Below, in pieces: positions 10,178-32,166 of a stretch of DNA of 32,166 nt. The notes under the pieces were generated by a model. That model was given only the letters and a program-made list of their open reading frames with translations, was not told the origin of the DNA and ran no database searches. The first letter of the stretch is position 1; each line of letters starts with the position of its first letter. This DNA is from a bacterium (GTDB lineage Bacteria > Bacillota_I > Bacilli_A > RF39 > UBA660): NCBI GenBank assembly GCA_029007415.1, contig JAQXHT010000051.1, forward strand, positions 1-32,166, in the 5' to 3' direction. The translations under genes were made by a program, and so were the position numbers.

Positions 10178-11536
10178 TTAAGCTTCTTCTAAGAAAGCAA
10201 TATAACCTTTATATGATTCATATAAATCAAGCTTACTAGTTACTTCGTATGGGGCATGCATACTAAGAACTGGTAGGCCACAATCGATTACTTCAACATT
10301 GTAATTAGCTAAGATGTAGGCGATTGTTCCACCACCGCCTTGGTCAACTTTACCTAACTCACCAAATTGATAAGTGATATTGTTATTATCCATTATATTT
10401 CTAAGTGTTGCGACAAATTCAGCATTAGCATCACTGCTACCACCTTTTCCTCCTGAACCAGTATATTTACAAAATGCTAAACCTCCTCCTAGATAAGCTT
10501 CATTATTTTTATTGCTAGCACTCTTATATAGTGGATCATATCCCGCTGTTACATCACAAGATAGCATCTTTGAATTAGATAATACTTTGCGATAAACTCC
10601 TTCTTTTTCATCTAGTAATAAGCAAATATCTGCAACAGTATTAACAAAGAAATGTGAATCCATTCCTGTTGAACCCATACTGCCAATTTCTTCTTTATCA
10701 GTGAAGATAACACAAGTTGTTTTTCTTGGATTAGTTACTTTTAACATAGCTTCTAAACAAGCATAAGAACAAGACCTATCATCTTGACCATACCCCATCA
10801 CCATACTGCGGTCAAATCCTAAATCTCTTGCAGGAAAAGCTGGTACTACTTCTAATTCACTAGAAATGAAGTCTTCTTCTTCAATATCATATTTATCTTT
10901 TAATATTGCTAAGATATTTTTCTTAACCGCTTCTTTTTCTTCACCTTTTAAGCTCTTACTTCCTACTAAGACATCTAAGTCTTCACCAGTTACCACAAGA
11001 GAAGCGGTCTTTTTCATTTGGTCTTTTGCTAGATGAATTAATAAATCTGTGATACCTAATACGGGGTCAGTCAAATCTTCACCAATATTTATTTTAATCT
11101 TGGTACCATCTTTTTTAATAACAACACCATGAAGTGCTAAAGGAATAGTAACCCATTGATATTTTTTAATACCACCATAGTAATGGGTATCAAGATAAGC
11201 TAAATTTTCTTCTTCATATAAAGGATGAAGCTTTAAATCAAGTCTTGGCGAATCAATATGAGCTCCTAAGATATTCATACCATTCTTGATATTTTCTTCA
11301 CCAATTACAAATAAGGCTACTGATTTACCACGATTACATAGATAAACTTTATCTCCTTTTGTTAAAGAAGTAACATCATCTAAATTTTTAAACCCTGCCT
11401 CCTCTGCTCTTGCAGTGATGTAGCTAGCACATTCTCTTTCTGTTTTACAACTAGTAATAAACTCTTTATAAGTATTACCTAGTTCCATTAAATCATTAAG
11501 TTCTTTTTCATTATATTTATCCCAATTATTTTTCAT
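10178..11536 (-). CDS. M18 family aspartyl-type aminopeptidase
   Basis: This zinc exopeptidase removes N-terminal residues from peptides in the cytoplasm. The M18 ligands are visible: GAHIDSPRLDLK (first His and Asp), GYGQDDRSCSY (bridging Asp), FTDKEEIGSMGSTG (Glu pair) and SMHAPYEV near the C-terminus (last His). At 452 residues the length is normal for bacterial M18 enzymes. I start at 11536 because GGAGG lies 8 bases before that ATG; the frame extends to 11599 through a hydrophobic stretch that overlaps the promoter. It is monocistronic. Confidence 0.93.
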   Translation of the reverse strand: MKNNWDKYNEKELNDLMELGNTYKEFITSCKTERECASYITARAEEAGFKNLDDVTSLTKGDKVYLCNRGKSVALFVIGEENIKNGMNILGAHIDSPRLDLKLHPLYEEENLAYLDTHYYGGIKKYQWVTIPLALHGVVIKKDGTKIKINIGEDLTDPVLGITDLLIHLAKDQMKKTASLVVTGEDLDVLVGSKSLKGEEKEAVKKNILAILKDKYDIEEEDFISSELEVVPAFPARDLGFDRSMVMGYGQDDRSCSYACLEAMLKVTNPRKTTCVIFTDKEEIGSMGSTGMDSHFFVNTVADICLLLDEKEGVYRKVLSNSKMLSCDVTAGYDPLYKSASNKNNEAYLGGGLAFCKYTGSGGKGGSSDANAEFVATLRNIMDNNNITYQFGELGKVDQGGGGTIAYILANYNVEVIDCGLPVLSMHAPYEVTSKLDLYESYKGYIAFLEEA

Positions 11537-17432: not shown

Positions 17433-17530
17433 ATGTAAAGACTATTTCTTTTTGCTATTATTTAAAGTTACTTAGATTAATTTCTCTAATCATATTACTA
17501 TCCACTTTATTAGTACTATCAATAATAGAT
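17433..17530 (+). pseudogene. Decayed first copy of the small hydrophobic toxin
   Basis: The DNA aligns with the two intact peptide genes at 17826 and 18209. It still encodes LKLLRLISLI and LLSTLLVLS in one frame. The ATG-equivalent is followed at once by TAA, the start region has indels, no Shine-Dalgarno site precedes it, and a one-base deletion removes the normal stop. The conserved toxin promoter and 5' leader are absent upstream. Its antisense RNA segment and antisense promoter are intact. Confidence 0.65.
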
Positions 17531-17531
17531 A

Positions 17532-17642
17532 ATAAAAAGGCACTCTTCATCAAGATAGAGTGTCACCCAAAATCTTTTTGAAGGAGACATTCACTACCAA
17601 ATAAATGTTCCTATTTTTTTATGTTATGCAAGTTCTCTTGCT
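17532..17642 (-). ncRNA. Antisense RNA of module 1 (predicted)
   Basis: The promoter at 17649-17677 would start a minus-strand RNA near 17642. The RNA crosses the complement of the toxin mRNA 3' end and stops at a hairpin (17539-17546 with 17557-17564) followed by CTTTTTATTATC. The length is about 110 nt. Its target toxin is decayed here, so it might act only on the other copies. Confidence 0.5.
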
Positions 17643-17648
17643 ACATAC

Positions 17649-17677
17649 ATATTAGCACAACACTTATCATTTAACAA
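17649..17677 (-). promoter_or_regulatory. Antisense promoter, module 1
   Basis: TTGTTA, 17 bases, then TGC-TAATAT (extended -10) on the minus strand. The same arrangement recurs at 18032-18060 and 18414-18442 while the spacer differs, which supports function. Confidence 0.65.
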
Positions 17678-17728
17678 GGCATTTTGCTACGAGAAAAGTT
17701 CAAATATTAAAAAGTGTTATCTATTCAA

Positions 17729-17757
17729 TTGGTTAATTATCTTATCTATGTTATTAT
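17729..17757 (+). promoter_or_regulatory. Toxin promoter, module 2
   Basis: TTGGTT, 17 bases, then TGT-TATTAT (extended -10). The start point would be near 17764, placing GGAACATTTAT at the extreme 5' end of the mRNA. Confidence 0.68.
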
Positions 17758-17789
17758 CTTTAACAGGAACATTTATAGATGAGTGTCAT

Positions 17790-17816
17790 CCTTCTTATAT
17801 AAAACATATAAGGAGG
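17790..17816 (+). promoter_or_regulatory. Stem hiding the ribosome-binding site, toxin 2
   Basis: CCTTCTTATAT pairs with ATATAAGGAGG across loop AAAAC: 11 pairs with one G-U. The right arm is the Shine-Dalgarno sequence of toxin 2, so translation should be blocked in this fold. Module 3 has a different stem with the same effect. Confidence 0.65.
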
Positions 17817-17825
17817 TGGTGATTT

Positions 17826-17918
17826 ATGAAAACTAAGACTTTTATTCTAAAATTTCTTAGATTAATTTCATTAATCTTACTACTATCCACCTTATTGGTA
17901 CTAGCAGTAAAAAACTAA
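17826..17918 (+). CDS. Small hydrophobic peptide, putative type I toxin (copy 2)
   Basis: The gene encodes 30 residues with a basic start (MKTKTF), one hydrophobic helix (ILKFLRLISLILLLSTLLVL) and a short AVKN end. This is the shape of membrane-acting type I toxins such as those in Fst, Ibs/Ldr and TxpA-type systems, although I do not recognise its exact family. AAGGAGGTGG lies 6 bases before the ATG. Support for a regulated toxin comes from the surroundings: its own promoter, a Shine-Dalgarno-blocking stem, end-to-end mRNA complementarity and a convergent antisense RNA. A harmless membrane micropeptide is the alternative. Confidence 0.68.
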   Translation: MKTKTFILKFLRLISLILLLSTLLVLAVKN

Positions 17919-18024
17919 AACAAAGACACTCTTCATTAAAGTAGAGTGTCAACAACAAACTTTGAAGGAGACATTCACTACCAAATAAATGTTCCTCTTT
18001 TTTATTTTATGCAAATTTATTTGC
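17915..18024 (-). ncRNA. Antisense RNA of module 2 (predicted)
   Basis: It would start near 18024 from the promoter at 18032-18060 and end at hairpin 17925-17932/17943-17950 (8 bp perfect) followed by TTTGTTTTAGTTTTTT. It overlaps the last codons and whole 3' end of the toxin mRNA, the convergent layout of Fst- and TxpA/RatA-type modules. Confidence 0.58.
17966..18008 (+). terminator. Toxin mRNA terminator, module 2
   Basis: AGGAGACATT pairs with AATGTTCCT (one bulged G) and CTTTTTTATTTT follows. The same right arm is complementary to the 5' end of the toxin mRNA, so terminator hairpin and long-range pairing compete. Confidence 0.65.
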
Positions 18025-18031
18025 TACATAC

Positions 18032-18060
18032 ATATTAGCACAATACTAACTTATTAACAA
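18032..18060 (-). promoter_or_regulatory. Antisense promoter, module 2
   Basis: TTGTTA, 17 bases, then TGC-TAATAT on the minus strand, as in modules 1 and 3. Confidence 0.65.
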
Positions 18061-18111
18061 GTAATTTTACTACGGAAAAAGTTTAAATATTTAAAAGTAT
18101 TATCTATTTAA

Positions 18112-18140
18112 TTGGTTAATTACTATATCTATGTTATTAT
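18112..18140 (+). promoter_or_regulatory. Toxin promoter, module 3
   Basis: TTGGTT, 17 bases, then TGT-TATTAT. The spacer has diverged from module 2 while both boxes and the TG are kept. Confidence 0.68.
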
Positions 18141-18171
18141 CAATAACAGGAACATTTATAGCTGAGTGTCA

Positions 18172-18200
18172 ACCTCCTGTCACAAAAAATAGCAAGGAGG
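18172..18200 (+). promoter_or_regulatory. Stem hiding the ribosome-binding site, toxin 3
   Basis: ACCTCCT (18172-18178) is a perfect complement of AGGAGGT (18194-18200), the Shine-Dalgarno sequence of toxin 3. Primary sequence differs from the module 2 stem, so the fold is kept rather than the bases. Confidence 0.65.
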
Positions 18201-18208
18201 TAGATAGA

Positions 18209-18301
18209 ATGAAAACTAAAACTTTTATTTTAAAGTTACTTAGACTAATTTCACTAATCTTGTTACTATCTACTTTATTAGTATTATCAATAAATAGATA
18301 A
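18209..18301 (+). CDS. Small hydrophobic peptide, putative type I toxin (copy 3)
   Basis: The gene encodes 30 residues: MKTKTF, then ILKLLRLISLILLLSTLLVL, then SINR. It differs from copy 2 in one core residue (Leu for Phe at 10) and in the last four residues. AAGGAGGT lies before the ATG. All regulatory parts of the module are present: promoter, blocking stem, 5'/3' complementary segments (18149-18159 with 18367-18377) and the convergent antisense RNA. The stop is TAA at 18299-18301, inside the start of the antisense terminator region. Confidence 0.68.
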   Translation: MKTKTFILKLLRLISLILLLSTLLVLSINR

Positions 18302-18406
18302 TAAAAAGGCACTCTTCATTAAAGTAGAGTGTCAACAAAACATTATGAGGTGACATTCACTTCCAAATAAATGTTCCTCTTTTTTATTTTATGCAAATTC
18401 ATTTGC
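18300..18406 (-). ncRNA. Antisense RNA of module 3 (predicted)
   Basis: It would start near 18406 from the promoter at 18414-18442 and end at hairpin 18308-18315/18326-18333 followed by CTTTTTATTATC. Confidence 0.56.
18347..18390 (+). terminator. Toxin mRNA terminator, module 3
   Basis: AGG and ACATT pair with AATGTTCCT around a two-base bulge, and CTTTTTTATTTT follows, as in module 2. Confidence 0.6.
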
Positions 18407-18413
18407 TACATAC

Positions 18414-18442
18414 ATATTAGCATAATACTAACTTATTAACAA
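18414..18442 (-). promoter_or_regulatory. Antisense promoter, module 3
   Basis: TTGTTA, 17 bases, then TGC-TAATAT on the minus strand. Confidence 0.65.
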
Positions 18443-18559
18443 GTAATTTTACTACGAGAAATACTATAACTTTTTTCTTTATCATTTTAAAATATATTAC
18501 GAAAGAAAGTAATATCACATTTTTCCATTACGTTACTATTTCTAACATATTTTGTATAT
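18443..18559. other. AT-rich spacer between toxin modules and obgE terminator
   Basis: No gene is seen. A 7-bp hairpin (ATATTAC with GTAATAT, 18494-18515) is the only structure I notice. Confidence 0.4.
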
Positions 18560-26472: not shown

Positions 26473-27600
26473 CTATCTTTTCATTTTTAAATCATTACGA
26501 TAGCAGAAACTACCGCTATCAGCACTTTTTAGAAAGCCATTATAACTTGCTAAGGTTTGTTCTAACTTTTCTGGTTCATGTTTTCTAACGTATTTTACTC
26601 GTTTTTTTATTTTTCGTTTAGTCTTGCCATTTATTAGCATTAATAGTCTTTTATTCTTTAAAACAAAGCGATACCCTAGAAAACAAAAGCCATGATGAAT
26701 TTCTACTATCTGTGTCTTTCTATTAAGTTTTAGTTTTACTTCATCTAATTTCTTTTCTATTTCTTTTAAACAGTATTTAAGATATTCTCTATCTTCATGA
26801 AATAAAATGAAATCATCCATATATCTAACGTAGCATTTTATTCTTAGCTTTTCTTTAATAAAATGATCTAAGTCATTTAAATAATAAACTGCTAATATTT
26901 GACTAGTCATATTACCTATTGGTAGTCCTTTTCCTTTTTGATAAAGTGGTATTGATTCAAGAGACTTAATATGACTTTCGCAATCTCTAATACCTAGTTT
27001 TTTAACTCTTTCAATTTCACTTTCTACTGATTTTTTAATTTCTTCATTAACATAATTATAATTAGTACTAATAATTATTTCTTTTACCATATTAAATATA
27101 CGTTCATCTTTAATAAGCTTAGTTAGCTTATCAAGAAGTATTTCTTGGTCTATTGAATAAAAGTATTTTGATATATCACATTTAAGTACATATATTTTAT
27201 CATGATTTTCCTTCATTTTATTAATGTACTTTTTCACATAATATATTCCTTTACTTGAACCCATAAGTGGTCTTGTAGCTACATTCATTGGTAGTAAAAG
27301 TGGATCAATTAAAGGAAAAAGAAAATAAGTACTAACTAAGTGATTAACTATTTTATCTGGCATTGTTTCACTCATAATCAAACGATATTTCGGCTCTTTA
27401 ATTATAAAGATATGATATTTTTGATGATGATAAGCTTCCTCTTTTAAGGTATTGTAAATTGACATAATATTGCAAGAAAAAAATAGTTCAAATATGAAAA
27501 TCTTATCCTTGTGTTTAGTATTTTTGCGAACGGTATTATAAACATTAGTAAGATTTTCTATCGTAACTACTTCTTCATAACTAAGTGCTTTGCTTTTCAC
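26473..27600 (-). CDS. DGR reverse transcriptase
   Basis: The 375-residue reverse transcriptase copies template-repeat RNA into adenine-mutated cDNA. RT blocks in order: RLIMSETMPDKIVNH near 73-87, NVATRPLMGSSKG near 106-118, the first catalytic Asp in KCDISKYFYSID (D142), IGNMTSQ at 228-234, the catalytic YMDD at 260-263, and GYRF at 309-312. The SQ-containing IGNMTSQ block is the DGR hallmark in place of the QGxxxSP of other RTs. It has no maturase or endonuclease domain. The start must be GTG, since a stop lies two codons earlier; GGGGTG precedes it by 7 bases. It overlaps avd by 20 bases. Confidence 0.95.
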   Translation of the reverse strand: MKSKALSYEEVVTIENLTNVYNTVRKNTKHKDKIFIFELFFSCNIMSIYNTLKEEAYHHQKYHIFIIKEPKYRLIMSETMPDKIVNHLVSTYFLFPLIDPLLLPMNVATRPLMGSSKGIYYVKKYINKMKENHDKIYVLKCDISKYFYSIDQEILLDKLTKLIKDERIFNMVKEIIISTNYNYVNEEIKKSVESEIERVKKLGIRDCESHIKSLESIPLYQKGKGLPIGNMTSQILAVYYLNDLDHFIKEKLRIKCYVRYMDDFILFHEDREYLKYCLKEIEKKLDEVKLKLNRKTQIVEIHHGFCFLGYRFVLKNKRLLMLINGKTKRKIKKRVKYVRKHEPEKLEQTLASYNGFLKSADSGSFCYRNDLKMKR

Positions 27601-27937
27601 TCCTAATCACCCCATAAGAAATTTTTCTGATTTCAATTAAAAAATTACTAACTGACTCGTACTTCTTATGGCTAATAATTTTTTTCTTATAACTAACATG
27701 CATATAATAATCGAGCATAGAAATTTGAATAACTAGTGCTTTTAGATATTTAAGTTTAATTCTATTAGTATCCTCGATTCGGTAAGAAAAAATATTTTCA
27801 ATTATCAAATACATAGTTTTTTCGATATTTTGTTTTAATATCACTTCATTTTTAGGATAGTTAATTAATTGTTTGTTAATATAATCAATCGTTTTTTCAC
27901 TATTAGATAAAAGTCTAAAACTATCATTGGAGTCCAT
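27581..27937 (-). CDS. avd: DGR accessory variability determinant (Avd-like)
   Basis: The 118-residue basic protein is all helix, with four heptad-like stretches: KTIDYINKQLINY, LKQNIEKTMYLIIENIFSY, RIKLKYLKALVIQISMLDYYM and YESVSNFLIEIRKISYGVI. Avd proteins form pentameric four-helix barrels that bind the RT and the template RNA. The call rests on size, helix pattern and position directly before the RT. AAGGAG lies 7 bases before the ATG inside the preceding gene. Overlaps on both sides imply coupled translation. Confidence 0.85.
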   Translation of the reverse strand: MDSNDSFRLLSNSEKTIDYINKQLINYPKNEVILKQNIEKTMYLIIENIFSYRIEDTNRIKLKYLKALVIQISMLDYYMHVSYKKKIISHKKYESVSNFLIEIRKISYGVIRSEKQST

Positions 27938-28331
27938 CGATAAACTCCTTAATTTTATTATAATTTTCAGAACTATTAGAAATTAACATTTCAATTCTTT
28001 TCATTAATAATTCATGGGAACATTTGCTGTAATAACTTTTCTGAGCAATAGCTGATATATCTTTATATAGATTATCATCACTCATATAACTAGTTATTTC
28101 TTCATTTTCTACGATGTAAAAAGAAATATTCTTATCACGTAAATTTTTTGTTACTTTAGTAAGTGCTGCTACTGGGAATCCTAATTTTTCATTATTAATT
28201 TGGTATGAAAAAAGATAATTCATAGTTATAGCATCAAATCCAAAAGTAACATAAAAACTGCCTACTTTTAAGAGAACTATTTCTTCTTGATGTTGTTTTT
28301 TCAACTCTTCATACTTTTCTTTTACTTTCAT
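27924..28331 (-). CDS. MutS domain I-like DGR accessory protein
   Basis: The 135-residue protein starts MKVKEKYEELKKQHQEEIVL and then LLKVGSFYVTFGFDA, which follows the mismatch-recognition domain of MutS (YxxLK, then GDFYELFxxDA). It continues with LGFPVAALTKVTKNLRD and FYIVENEEI, also in MutS-I order. The Phe of the mismatch wedge is kept but the Glu is Val. No MutS core or ATPase is present. I start at 28331 because TAGGAG precedes that ATG; the frame runs 29 codons further back into template unit 1. I recall a MutS-like class among reported DGR accessory genes, which cannot be verified here. It overlaps avd by 14 bases. Confidence 0.72.
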   Translation of the reverse strand: MKVKEKYEELKKQHQEEIVLLKVGSFYVTFGFDAITMNYLFSYQINNEKLGFPVAALTKVTKNLRDKNISFYIVENEEITSYMSDDNLYKDISAIAQKSYYSKCSHELLMKRIEMLISNSSENYNKIKEFIDGLQ

Positions 28332-28350: not shown

Positions 28351-28732
28351 TGCCAAAGATTAATCTTGTTTCCAATCTTTAGATTATGAGTTATATCATT
28401 ACTTCCTCTAGTTACCAACCTTAATCAATAACATACGGTTAGATTAGCAATAATTATACTAATTCGTAGTAGGAATCTGGACGGGCCCCGAAGGAATTCG
28501 TGACGTTGTTCCAATGATTCAGACTGCCTGAAGGATTCACGTTCCAAACGTTCGCATTAGAGTTGTTAGACTCAAAGTTAGACGGAGACAGCGAAGTTCT
28601 AAGCTCTGAATGCAACACAAACCTGAAAGGTCCGTTAGTAGATTAACCTCACTTACTATATTTTTTCAATGTATCAATATTTTCTCAAATAATAATATTA
28701 GCTAAGAAAAGTATACATTATTTTTTCTGGCA
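28351..28732 (-). repeat. DGR template unit 1 (TR1 at 28477-28592)
   Basis: This unit lies 19 bases before the accessory gene start. In the minus sense it opens with TGCCAGAAAAAATAATG and ends with AGATTAATCTTTGGCA. Its 116-bp TR encodes LSPSNFESNNSNANVWNV then NPSGSLNHWNNVTNS then FGARP, with 11 Asn codons available for adenine mutagenesis. Glu replaces Asn at one site compared with TR2 and TR3. The ATGAG/CTCAT hairpin in the 3' flank carries one mismatch here. Confidence 0.88.
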
Positions 28733-29365: not shown

Positions 29366-29740
29366 TGCCAAAGATTAATCTTGTTTCCAATCTTACAGAT
29401 TATGAGTTGGCTCATTACTTCCTCTAGTTATTAACCTTAATCAATAACATACGGTTAGATTAGCAATGATTATACTAATTTGTAGTAGGAATCTGGACGG
29501 GCCCCGAAGGAATTCGTGACGTTGTTTCCGTTATTCAAGCTGCCTGAAGGATTCACGTTCCAAACATTTGCATTAGAGTTGTTTGAATTGAAGTTAGACG
29601 GAGACAGCAAACTTCTAAAAACTAATACTAGAAGGAAAAAACCGTTATTAGACTAACCTTATTTATATTCTTTTAATGTACCAATATTTTCTTGAATAGT
29701 TAACACCAGTCAAAAAAAGTATACATCATATTTCTTGGCA
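29366..29740 (-). repeat. DGR template unit 2 (TR2 at 29493-29608)
   Basis: The TR of 116 bp encodes LSPSNFNSNNSNANVWNV then NPSGSLNNGNNVTNS then FGARP. Gly stands at the Trp position found in most other copies, so this template would write a different scaffold residue. The 5' hairpin is the longest of the set (TTTTTTTGA with TCAAGAAAA, one G-U). Confidence 0.88.
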
Positions 29741-29776: not shown

Positions 29777-30154
29777 TGCCAAAGATTAATCTTGTTTCCA
29801 ATCTTACAGATTATGAGTTATCTCATTACTTCCTCTAGTTACCAACCTTAATCAATAACATACGGTTTAGATTAGCAATAATTGTACTAACTTGTAGTAG
29901 GAATCTGGACGGGCCCCGAAGGAATTCGTGACGTTATTCCAGTCAATCAGACCGCCCGAAGGAAGGACGTTCCAAACGTTCGCATTAGAGTTGTTTGAAT
30001 TGAAGTTAGACGGAGACAGCAAACTTCTAAAAACTAATGCTAGAAAAAGTCTAAAACCGTTATTAGATTAACCTTTATCATTTTCTTTTAATGTACCAAT
30101 ATTTTTTTAAATAATTAGTTTAGCTAAAAAACGTATACATTATTTTTTTTGGCA
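29777..30154 (-). repeat. DGR template unit 3 (TR3 at 29905-30020), donor of the VR
   Basis: The TR of 116 bp encodes LSPSNFNSNNSNANVWNV then LPSGGLIDWNNVTNS then FGARP. It is the only template with LPSGGL, which the target VR also has. Every non-adenine base of this TR (91 positions, coding sense) is identical in the VR, and 15 of its 25 adenines differ. This unit has lost the TAA that the other units carry a few codons after FGARP. Confidence 0.93.
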
Positions 30155-30233: not shown

Positions 30234-30590
30234 TGTCAAAGATTAATCTTGTTTCCAATCTTACAGATTATGAGTTAGCTCATTACTTCCTCTAGTTAGT
30301 AACCTTAATCAATAACATACGGTTTAGATTAGCAATGATTATACTAATTTGTAGTAGGAATCTGGACGGGCCCCGAAGGAATTTGTTACATCACGATTAT
30401 TCAGGCTGCCTGAAGAAAACACGCTCCAAATATCTATTATAGAATAATTAGAATTGAAATAAAACGGAGACAGCAATATCTTTAATGCTTAGAACCTCGC
30501 ATTAGATTAACCTTGTTATTATTGCAATGTACAAATATTTTCTTAGCAATAATTATTAACTGAGAAAAGTATACATTATTTTTTCTGACA
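30234..30590 (-). repeat. DGR template unit 4 (TR4 at 30362-30474), divergent
   Basis: The TR of 113 bp encodes LSPFYFNSNYSIIDIWSV then FSSGSLNNRDVTNS then FGARP. One codon is missing and several Asn codons are gone. Unit ends read TGTCA and TGACA instead of TGCCA and TGGCA, a matched change that keeps the closing stem. The TR-enclosing stem is weaker here. It may be a degenerating template or one made from a previously mutated VR. Confidence 0.83.
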
Positions 30591-30629: not shown

Positions 30630-31009
30630 TGCCAAAGATTAATCTTGTTTCCAATCTTTTAGATTATGAGTTAGCTCATTACTTCCTCTAGTTATTAACC
30701 TTAATCAATAACATACGGTTTAGATTAGCAATGATTATACTAATTTGTAGTAGGAATCTGGACGGGCCCCGAAGGAATTCTCGACACTACCCCAATGATT
30801 CAACATGCCTGAAGGATTCACGTTCCAAACATTCGCACTAGAGTTATTTGAATTGAAGTTAGACGGAGACAGCGAACTTCTAAAACTAATGCTAGAATGG
30901 ATCAAAACCGCTATTAGATTAACCTTATATTATTTTTTATTATCAATGCACCAATATTCTTACAAATAGTATTATTAGTTATAAGATGTATACATTATTT
31001 TTTCTGGCA
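30630..31009 (-). repeat. DGR template unit 5 (TR5 at 30758-30873)
   Basis: The TR of 116 bp encodes LSPSNFNSNNSSANVWNV then NPSGMLNHWGSVENS then FGARP. Met, Gly and Ser replace residues that are Ser, Asn and Asn in TR1. The 5' hairpin is TCTTATAA with TTGTAAGA in the RNA sense. Confidence 0.88.
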
Positions 31010-31037: not shown

Positions 31038-31398
31038 TGCCAAAGATTAATCTTGTTTCCAATCTTACAGATTATGAGTTAGCTCATTACTTCCTCTAGT
31101 TACCAACCTTAATCAATAACATACGGTTAGATTAGCAATGATTATACTAATTTGTAGTAGGAATCTGGACGGGCCCCGAAGGAATTATTGACGTTATTCC
31201 AGTCAAGACTGCCTGAAGGCTGCACCGTCCAAACGTTAGCGTGAGAATTACCTGAGTTGAATTTAGACGGAGACAGTGAAAAAGAAATCCAAGTGAGAGA
31301 ACCGTTTTTAGATTAACCTTTTCTTTATGTTCAATGTACCAATATTTTTTCTGAATAATTAATTTAATCAAAGAAAGTATACATTATTTTTTCTGGCA
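31038..31398 (-). repeat. DGR template unit 6 (TR6 at 31165-31277)
   Basis: The TR of 113 bp encodes LSPSKFNSGNSHANVWTV then QPSGSLDWNNVNNS then FGARP, one codon shorter than most, at the loop before DW. Lys, Gly, His, Thr and Gln occupy positions that are Asn in other copies, so fewer sites are open to adenine mutagenesis. Confidence 0.86.
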
Positions 31399-31443: not shown

Positions 31444-31808
31444 TGCCAAAGATTAATCTTGTTTCCAATCTTTAGATTATGAGTTAACTCATTACTTCCT
31501 CTAGTTATCAACCTTAATCAATAACATACGGTTAGATTAGCAATGATTATACTAATTTGTAGTAGGAATCTGGACGGGCCCCGAAGGAATTTGCAACATA
31601 CGTCCAATCATTCAGACTGCCCGAAGGATTCACGTTCCAAACGTTCGACTGTGAGTTGTTTGAATCGAAGTTAGACGGAGACAGCGAAAGGACAAACAAA
31701 CAGAAAGAGTCCGTTAGTAGATTAACCTTATTTATATTTATTTAATGCATCAATATTCTTACAAATAATTATATTAGTTGCAAGATGTATACATTACCTT
31801 TTCTGGCA
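31444..31808 (-). repeat. DGR template unit 7 (TR7 at 31570-31685)
   Basis: The TR of 116 bp encodes LSPSNFDSNNSQSNVWNV then NPSGSLNDWTYVANS then FGARP. It is nearest the target gene, starting just after the target terminator, yet it did not template the present VR: TR7 has CAG where the VR has CTT, a change that includes a guanine. The 5' hairpin is TCTTGCAA with TTGTAAGA. Confidence 0.88.
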
Positions 31809-31809
31809 T

Positions 31810-31842
31810 AAATTAAAGGCAAAATGATGAGTCATTTTGCCT
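31810..31842 (-). terminator. Terminator of the DGR target gene
   Basis: AGGCAAAATGA and its perfect complement form an 11-bp stem with a 4-base loop, 5 bases past the TAG stop, with TTTAATTTA after it on the minus strand. It separates target transcription from the template array. Confidence 0.75.
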
Positions 31843-31847
31843 AGAAA

Positions 31848-32166
31848 CTAACTTATTGAAACAACATATGGATTTAAAGCAGTTCCATCTCCCTTGGTTA
31901 TCAGTGTATCAGCCTTTAGGTTGATAACTGGACGGGCCCCGAAGGAAGACGAGACGTAAATCCAGTCAAGCAGACCGCCCGAAGGAAGGACGTACCAAAC
32001 GTACGCAAGAGAGTAGTATGAAGAGAAGTAAGACGGAGACAGCGTCCAGAAATATTGGCCATTATATAGATAATAATTACTATTTGCTGTATTATATACT
32101 CCTCCAGCCATTGCTACTTCATCGGCTGTGATAAGTGAAACTGGATAGTCTAGTTTGGCACTTGCA
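31848..32166 (-). CDS. C-terminus of DGR target, C-type-lectin-like domain (partial)
   Basis: The gene enters from the window's right edge and ends in TAG at 31848-31850; about 105 residues are visible. The order DYPVSLITADEVAMAGG, then YWxLYNGQYFWTLSPS-like residues, then SFGARPVINLKAD matches the C-terminal half of FGE/C-type-lectin-type DGR targets, where the fold holds diversified residues on its surface. The variable segment runs from LSPSYFSSYYSLAYVWYV through LPSGGLLDWIYVSSS to FGARP. Tyr, Ser, Leu and Ile stand where TR3 has Asn or Thr. The N-terminus, and so localisation and binding role, lies outside the window. Confidence 0.85.
   Translation of the reverse strand, partial: ASAKLDYPVSLITADEVAMAGGVYNTANSNYYLYNGQYFWTLSPSYFSSYYSLAYVWYVLPSGGLLDWIYVSSSFGARPVINLKADTLITKGDGTALNPYVVSIS
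31897..31928 (-). other. Inverted repeat at the 3' edge of the VR
   Basis: GTTATCA and TGATAAC form a perfect 7-bp inverted repeat 18 bases apart, starting at the last base of the VR in coding sense. Hairpins just after the VR help target recognition in known DGRs; the loop here is longer than usual, so this is tentative. Confidence 0.35.
31928..32043 (-). repeat. DGR variable repeat (VR)
   Basis: The 116-bp VR starts at GCTGTCTCCGTCT and ends at the GC-rich GGGGCCCGTCCAG, which is identical in all seven templates and acts as the likely initiation (IMH-type) site. Against TR3 all 15 differences are at template adenines: 11 A to T and 4 A to C. Similarity to the templates stops right after the final CCAG. 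Confidence 0.93.

Follow-up and report, generated by a model that had tools for sequence, protein, structure and literature searches.

A tandem array of seven diversity-generating retroelement template RNA modules with a probable circularly permuted layout in an uncultured Bacilli genome

Most diversity-generating retroelements (DGRs) are viewed as having a single template that writes to one target or to several closely similar ones. The best solved relative of the reverse transcriptase described here belongs to PDB entries 8ub7–8ube, which we take to be the bRT–Avd–TR RNA complex of Bordetella phage BPP-1. The BPP-1 DGR is described as having one template repeat (TR) and, separating it from brt, a 3′ spacer (PMC12875486). 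Our locus resembles BPP-1 in its reverse transcriptase (2.6e-32), its accessory variability determinant (Avd), a TR/variable repeat (VR) pair with adenine-specific change, and a template RNA structured 3′ of the TR, the BPP-1 RNA fold being taken from a secondary citation. In contrast to BPP-1, it has, ahead of the protein genes, seven complete RNA modules; it also has an additional MutS domain I-like protein (MSL), and the elements P2b–P3 have moved to the 5′ side of the RNA. More than one TR per reverse transcriptase, with multiple targets, is a trait shared with DGRs in a survey (PMC6642488): Stenotrophomonas SKA14 has two TRs and six VRs, and P. costantinii has six unique TRs in a DGR called atypical there, with few A-to-N changes. 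The same survey reports one TR in about 80% of multi-VR DGRs, hence more than one in about 20%. Unlike our array, the multi-TR DGRs in the survey passages that we consulted are not described as having tandem whole TR-RNA modules or a permuted RNA, and in the literature that we searched, the key structural papers lying outside that search, neither a permuted DGR RNA nor complete TR-RNA modules in tandem arrays are described. Multi-TR DGRs of related uncultured Bacilli (genomes G102, G103 and G276; loci L111, L113 and L118) have the same RNA family, the same target C-terminal domain and arrays of about 3–7 TRs. They differ in being canonical, with P2–P3 on the 3′ side, except for unit A of L111, and in that some of their TRs lack the 3′ domain.

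The window, by which we mean the whole stretch of 32,166 nucleotides that was analysed, contains MSL, Avd and reverse transcriptase genes that form an operon adjoining the array (Table 1). The reverse transcriptase matched RVT_1 (1.5e-18), phrog_1423 (1.8e-83) and, as its best PDB match, 8ub7. Avd matched NF033474 (1.4e-9), phrog_3206 (2.9e-10) and bAvd (1.9e-7, under the curated cut-off of that model). MSL is a known DGR accessory protein (PMC10053308); its start is likely the ATG at 28331, directly after unit 1, and the listed TTG start at 28418 falls within that unit. The target gene carries its VR at the C-terminal end, and an IMH-like invariant G/C-rich 3′ end, TCCTTCGGGGCCCGTCCAG, is identical in the TRs and VRs. 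Several features of a DGR are present together: a DGR-type reverse transcriptase, an adenine-mismatch TR/VR pair, a C-terminal VR and an accessory protein. Shortly 3′ of the VR-bearing gene, an inverted repeat around AAAATGACTCWTCATTTT occurs both in the window and in relatives L037, L111, L114, L117, L254 and L270; it may be a terminator, or a target-site hairpin or cruciform as in BPP-1. A second DGR-type reverse transcriptase, 42% identical to the first, is encoded in this genome (G000; contig C67, locus L083), and a repeat pair at that locus (10802–10909 and 11200–11307) has 18 of its 19 mismatches on one base of one copy.

Table 1. Features of the DGR locus and of unit 4, in window coordinates.
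Feature	Position	Strand	Remarks
DGR reverse transcriptase	26473..27600	-	YMDD, LPIGNMTSQ motif
Avd (accessory variability determinant)	27581..27937	-	profile matches
MutS domain I-like DGR accessory protein (MSL)	27924..28331	-	PF01624 5.2e-8
Unit 1 TR-RNA module	28351..28732	-	UGCCA..UGGCA ends
Unit 2 TR-RNA module	29366..29740	-	
Unit 3 TR-RNA module	29777..30154	-	template of adjacent VR; best match of C25 and C88 VRs
TR3 core	29905..30020	-	template of adjacent VR (101/116 identical)
Unit 4 TR-RNA module	30234..30590	-	RNA 5′ end 30590 (UGUCA), 3′ end 30234 (UGACA)
Unit 4 P2a arm UGACA	30234..30238	-	RNA 3′ end; unit start in the earlier note
Unit 4 P1 3′ arm AGAUUAAUCU	30240..30249	-	
TR4 core	30362..30474	-	open frame LSPFYFNSNYSIIDIWSVFSSGSLNNRDVTNSFGARP retained
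Unit 4 P1 5′ arm AGGUUAAUCU	30504..30513	-	
Unit 4 P3 stem (AAUGUAUA../UGUACAUU and inner helix)	30525..30580, limits approximate	-	5′ here, 3′ of TR in relatives
Unit 4 P2b arm UGUCA	30586..30590	-	RNA 5′ end; unit end in the earlier note
Unit 5 TR-RNA module	30630..31009	-	
Unit 6 TR-RNA module	31038..31398	-	
Unit 7 TR-RNA module	31444..31808	-	
Inverted repeat AGGCAAAATGACTCATCATTTTGCCT after VR gene	31817..31842	-	loop region conserved in relatives
Target gene C-terminal end, cut by contig end	31848..32166	-	contains ..WTLSPSYFSSYYSLAYVWYVLPSGGLLDWIYVSSSFGARPVINLK..
Variable repeat (VR) of target gene	31928..32043	-	

Each of the seven units is a complete TR RNA of a DGR, and their RNA strand is the minus strand. 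An asparagine-rich open frame, for example LSPSNFNSNNSNANVWNVNPSGSLNNGNNVTNSFGARP, runs on this strand through all seven units without a stop in any of them (0 stops in 7/7) and shares homology with the final part of the target gene. Similarity between units is 80–88% and ends sharply at the unit ends, and the 28–79 nt spacers resemble one another at the level of shuffled sequence (the sixth spacer, of 633 nt, lies outside this comparison). An earlier note on this DNA had held that each unit is probably one folded RNA domain with defined boundaries. In substance this is supported, the exact ends and unrelated spacers marking the boundaries, although the note missed that the RNA is the minus strand and that the units are DGR template RNAs. 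Its description of the ends also holds: on the plus strand six units have TGCCA and TGGCA, and unit 4 has TGTCA and TGACA (30234–30238 and 30586–30590). A consensus scan for promoters and terminators of individual units yielded none that was convincing, with counts at chance except for the hairpin after the VR gene. A different repeat occupies positions 17461–18461 of the window, between the SMC and Obg genes, where a 383-bp unit is repeated in tandem about 2.6 times. The copies carry GACACTCTTCATTAAAGTAGAGTGTC hairpins, and the two complete ones contain a Shine-Dalgarno-like site and a hydrophobic peptide of about 30 residues, MKTKTFILKFLRLISLILLLSTLLVLAVKN (ATG near 17826, plus strand). By eye, they look like tandem type I toxin–antitoxin modules of the Fst/Ldr kind.

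All 15 mismatches between TR3 and the adjacent VR fall at TR adenines (p ~1e-10), which is the signature of a DGR. TR3 is the best match of each of the three full-length TR-like VRs in this genome, namely the adjacent one and those on contigs C25 and C88. The C88 VR differs from it mainly at adenines and the C25 VR does so at 13 of 18 differences. TR1, TR2 and TR4–7 differ from these TR3-matched VRs at several non-adenine sites and are thus not their templates. The assembly of this uncultured MAG, which is 77% complete, yielded no VR for these other TRs. Contigs C118 and C93 begin or end within probable VRs, so that their targets cannot be assigned to a TR. The ends of contigs C51, C25, C118 and C93 lie within or close to a VR, as though hypervariable or repeated sequence had broken the assembly.

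The relatives extend this picture. In genome G102 (locus L114, six TRs), TR3, TR4 and TR5 each have their best matches in different genes, located on other contigs; mismatches fall at A in 12 of 13 cases for the VR of TR4, in 12 of 13 and, for a second VR, 12 of 16 for those of TR3, and in 9 of 15 for that of TR5. The VR beside the G276 array matches the third array TR (5 of 6 mismatches at A), and the adjacent VRs of G100, G101 and G104 match the last TR with A-only mismatches. A VR-domain profile search detected 24 target-like domains in G102 and 29 in G103. The array is best read as a template library with different targets, and several target genes probably receive mutations from it; within this genome, it is the TR3 part of this reading that the sequence supports. 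Alternatively, TR3 alone may be active and the other six units may be decaying duplicates without targets. The shared preference of the three full-length VRs for TR3 fits this view, as does TR4, which is the most diverged TR and has lost several adenines. However, all seven units retain the RNA structure and an open VR frame, other TRs in relatives have their own targets, and probable VRs are cut by contig ends in an incomplete assembly. We regard this alternative as possible, though on the unlikely side, and it is compatible with the RNA model that follows.

In the relatives, the RNA follows the order P1–TR–P1–P2 hairpin–P3. P1 is a long-range stem found in nearly every complete relative unit, with arms about 220–265 nt apart, the 5′ arm preceding the TR and the 3′ arm directly following the word GGAAACA. 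Across 44 distinct sequences, a set that left out two misplaced arms (L080 and L116), P1 is 98.6% paired and 6 of its 11 pairs have changed on both sides. Its covariation is 0.476 versus 0.239 in shuffles that keep relatedness, none of 500 of which reached the observed value, and sliding the partner by one base lowers pairing to about 60%. In the unconstrained fold of window unit 6, P1 has a low probability. P3 shows double changes at 13 of 15 pairs. P2 forms a local hairpin on the 3′ side of the TR, and we refer to its first and second arms as P2a and P2b. These arms vary by lineage (GGAC/GTCC, TGGT/ACCA, GAGTA/TACTC, GAAATAA/TTATTTC) and are complementary in most units, as judged by hand comparison without a shuffle control; owing to its variable loop length, P2 had escaped a consensus fold of the 3′ domain. 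The earlier note had proposed a test for covariation of the unit ends in a larger alignment. In the relatives, P1 and P3 covary and the P2 arms change yet mostly stay complementary, but the strongly covarying long-range stem is P1 and not the unit-end stem that the note had in mind.

Rfam covariance models gave no match at gathering thresholds or at E<=0.1. The exact 3′-domain pattern had 75 matches in viral contigs; of the 11 that lie near a CCTACTA-like word, most fall in one phage protein-coding sequence and none resembles a TR module. Compact arrays occur at L113, L117, L118 and L122, where extra TRs have their own 5′ P1 arm but no 3′ domain; in the L113 and L118 arrays it is the last TR, one that has that domain, to which the VR corresponds. 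Genome G276 carries complete TR-RNA modules outside its reverse transcriptase-bearing stretch, on contigs C14 and C40 (L262 and L264), those on C14 among unrelated genes, and these are possibly stand-alone templates acting in trans.

In the window units, TTTGGCA follows P1 exactly at the P2a position of the relatives, and P2b (TGCCA) and then P3 stand at the opposite unit end, before P1. P1 consequently adjoins the 3′ end of the unit but sits about 80 nt inward of its 5′ end. This arrangement, P2b–P3 before the TR and P2a after it, is seen in all seven window units and in unit A of L111, and none of the seven has the canonical order of the clade. By its position, the end stem of the earlier note is the opened P2 hairpin of the relatives' RNA. 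With P2b and P3 at the 5′ end, P2 would close the unit, and the layout appears to be a circular permutation in which the P2 loop has been opened and the P2 stem closes the RNA. The permuted layout is represented by two loci, the window array and L111 unit A; a search with the window-like pattern in 385 more genomes of the order found no further permuted unit.

Six counted end pairs are kept in all eight units of permuted layout (seven in the window and L111 unit A). The third is U–A in unit 4 and C–G elsewhere, the sixth alternates between G–U and A–U, and in thermodynamic folding the end-stem core has a probability of about 0.9–1.0 in nearly all window units. The seven-pair stem with one G–U that the earlier note had drawn forms on the minus strand (UGCCAGA/UUUGGCA) but not on the plus strand, where the sixth pair would be A·C in most units, in keeping with the minus strand as the RNA strand. 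The same note had treated the double change in unit 4 as good evidence of end pairing. It is a single event, chosen after inspection, and is suggestive rather than strong; the chance that the only two substitutions among 70 end bases fall at partner positions of one unit and are complementary is roughly estimated at 1/69 × 1/3, about 0.5%. Pairing of the unit ends is itself very probable, given the pairs kept in 8/8 units, the folding result and the complementary P2 arms of the relatives.

The same arms could also belong to a canonical array read out of phase, with P2 formed locally by the 3′ end of a unit together with the 5′ end of the unit that follows. P2b–P3 directly follows P2a in canonical relatives, and local hairpins can be folded between most neighbouring units. 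The P2 loops would then measure 28–79 nt, with one of 633 nt, and the first P2b–P3 and the missing last P2b–P3 would be leftovers of deletions, which would have had to occur exactly at the P2 loop on both array edges. The spacers, however, are unrelated and variable, and pairing between neighbouring units would leave two orphan arms, whereas within-unit P2 pairing works in 7/7 window units. For unit 4, pairing with its neighbours was rejected: it would give a broken A·C with unit 3 and a G–U with unit 5, whereas pairing within unit 4 is perfect. In L111 unit A, moreover, the next P1 begins within a few bases of P2a and no P2b adjoins downstream, which leaves the arm at the unit's own 5′ end as the evident partner. 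The joint between P3 and P1 in the window units is only about 20 bases, too short for a terminator and promoter such as appear, by eye, to sit between P3 and P1 in L114. We consider the out-of-phase arrangement unlikely.

We favour, with good confidence, a chromosomal DGR template library in which each unit is one circularly permuted RNA closed by end-to-end P2. Each RNA would comprise P3, followed by P1 enclosing the TR and the conserved 3′ domain, P2b and P3 having moved to the 5′ end so that P2 becomes the terminal stem. The reverse transcriptase and Avd would copy the TR, misreading adenines, and the cDNA would take the place of the corresponding VR, which lies at the target gene's 3′ end, different TRs writing different targets. 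Terminal pairing in vivo, transcription of each unit, retrohoming activity and the roles of TR1, TR2 and TR4–7 are what we infer from the sequence. A further step, which we find doubtful, would be that natural permuted DGR RNAs multiplied as RNA-sized cassettes, possibly by reverse transcription and re-insertion of template RNA, to give a seven-member library by which several targets are diversified separately; re-insertion is suggested because homology between units extends precisely to the presumed RNA ends and no further. It is very improbable that TGCCA/TGGCA are instead terminal inverted repeats of a small mobile, MITE-like element carrying a TR, with pairing irrelevant: the units do behave as separate cassettes whose ends are exact inverted repeats and whose spacers are unrelated, but relatives have these arms as a local RNA hairpin beside P1 whose sequence changes while staying complementary, no unit copy was found elsewhere in this genome, and inspection of the open reading frame list revealed nothing transposase-like adjoining the array.

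If the favoured reading is true, a single reverse transcriptase could draw on a tandem library of complete template RNAs to evolve several surface proteins separately from one another. From a natural circular permutation one would learn which parts of the RNA need joining and which ends are free, and the permuted RNA would offer an immediate design test for mutagenesis tools built on DGRs. The covarying P1–P2–P3 model would provide an evolutionary structure of DGR RNA beyond the phage prototype.
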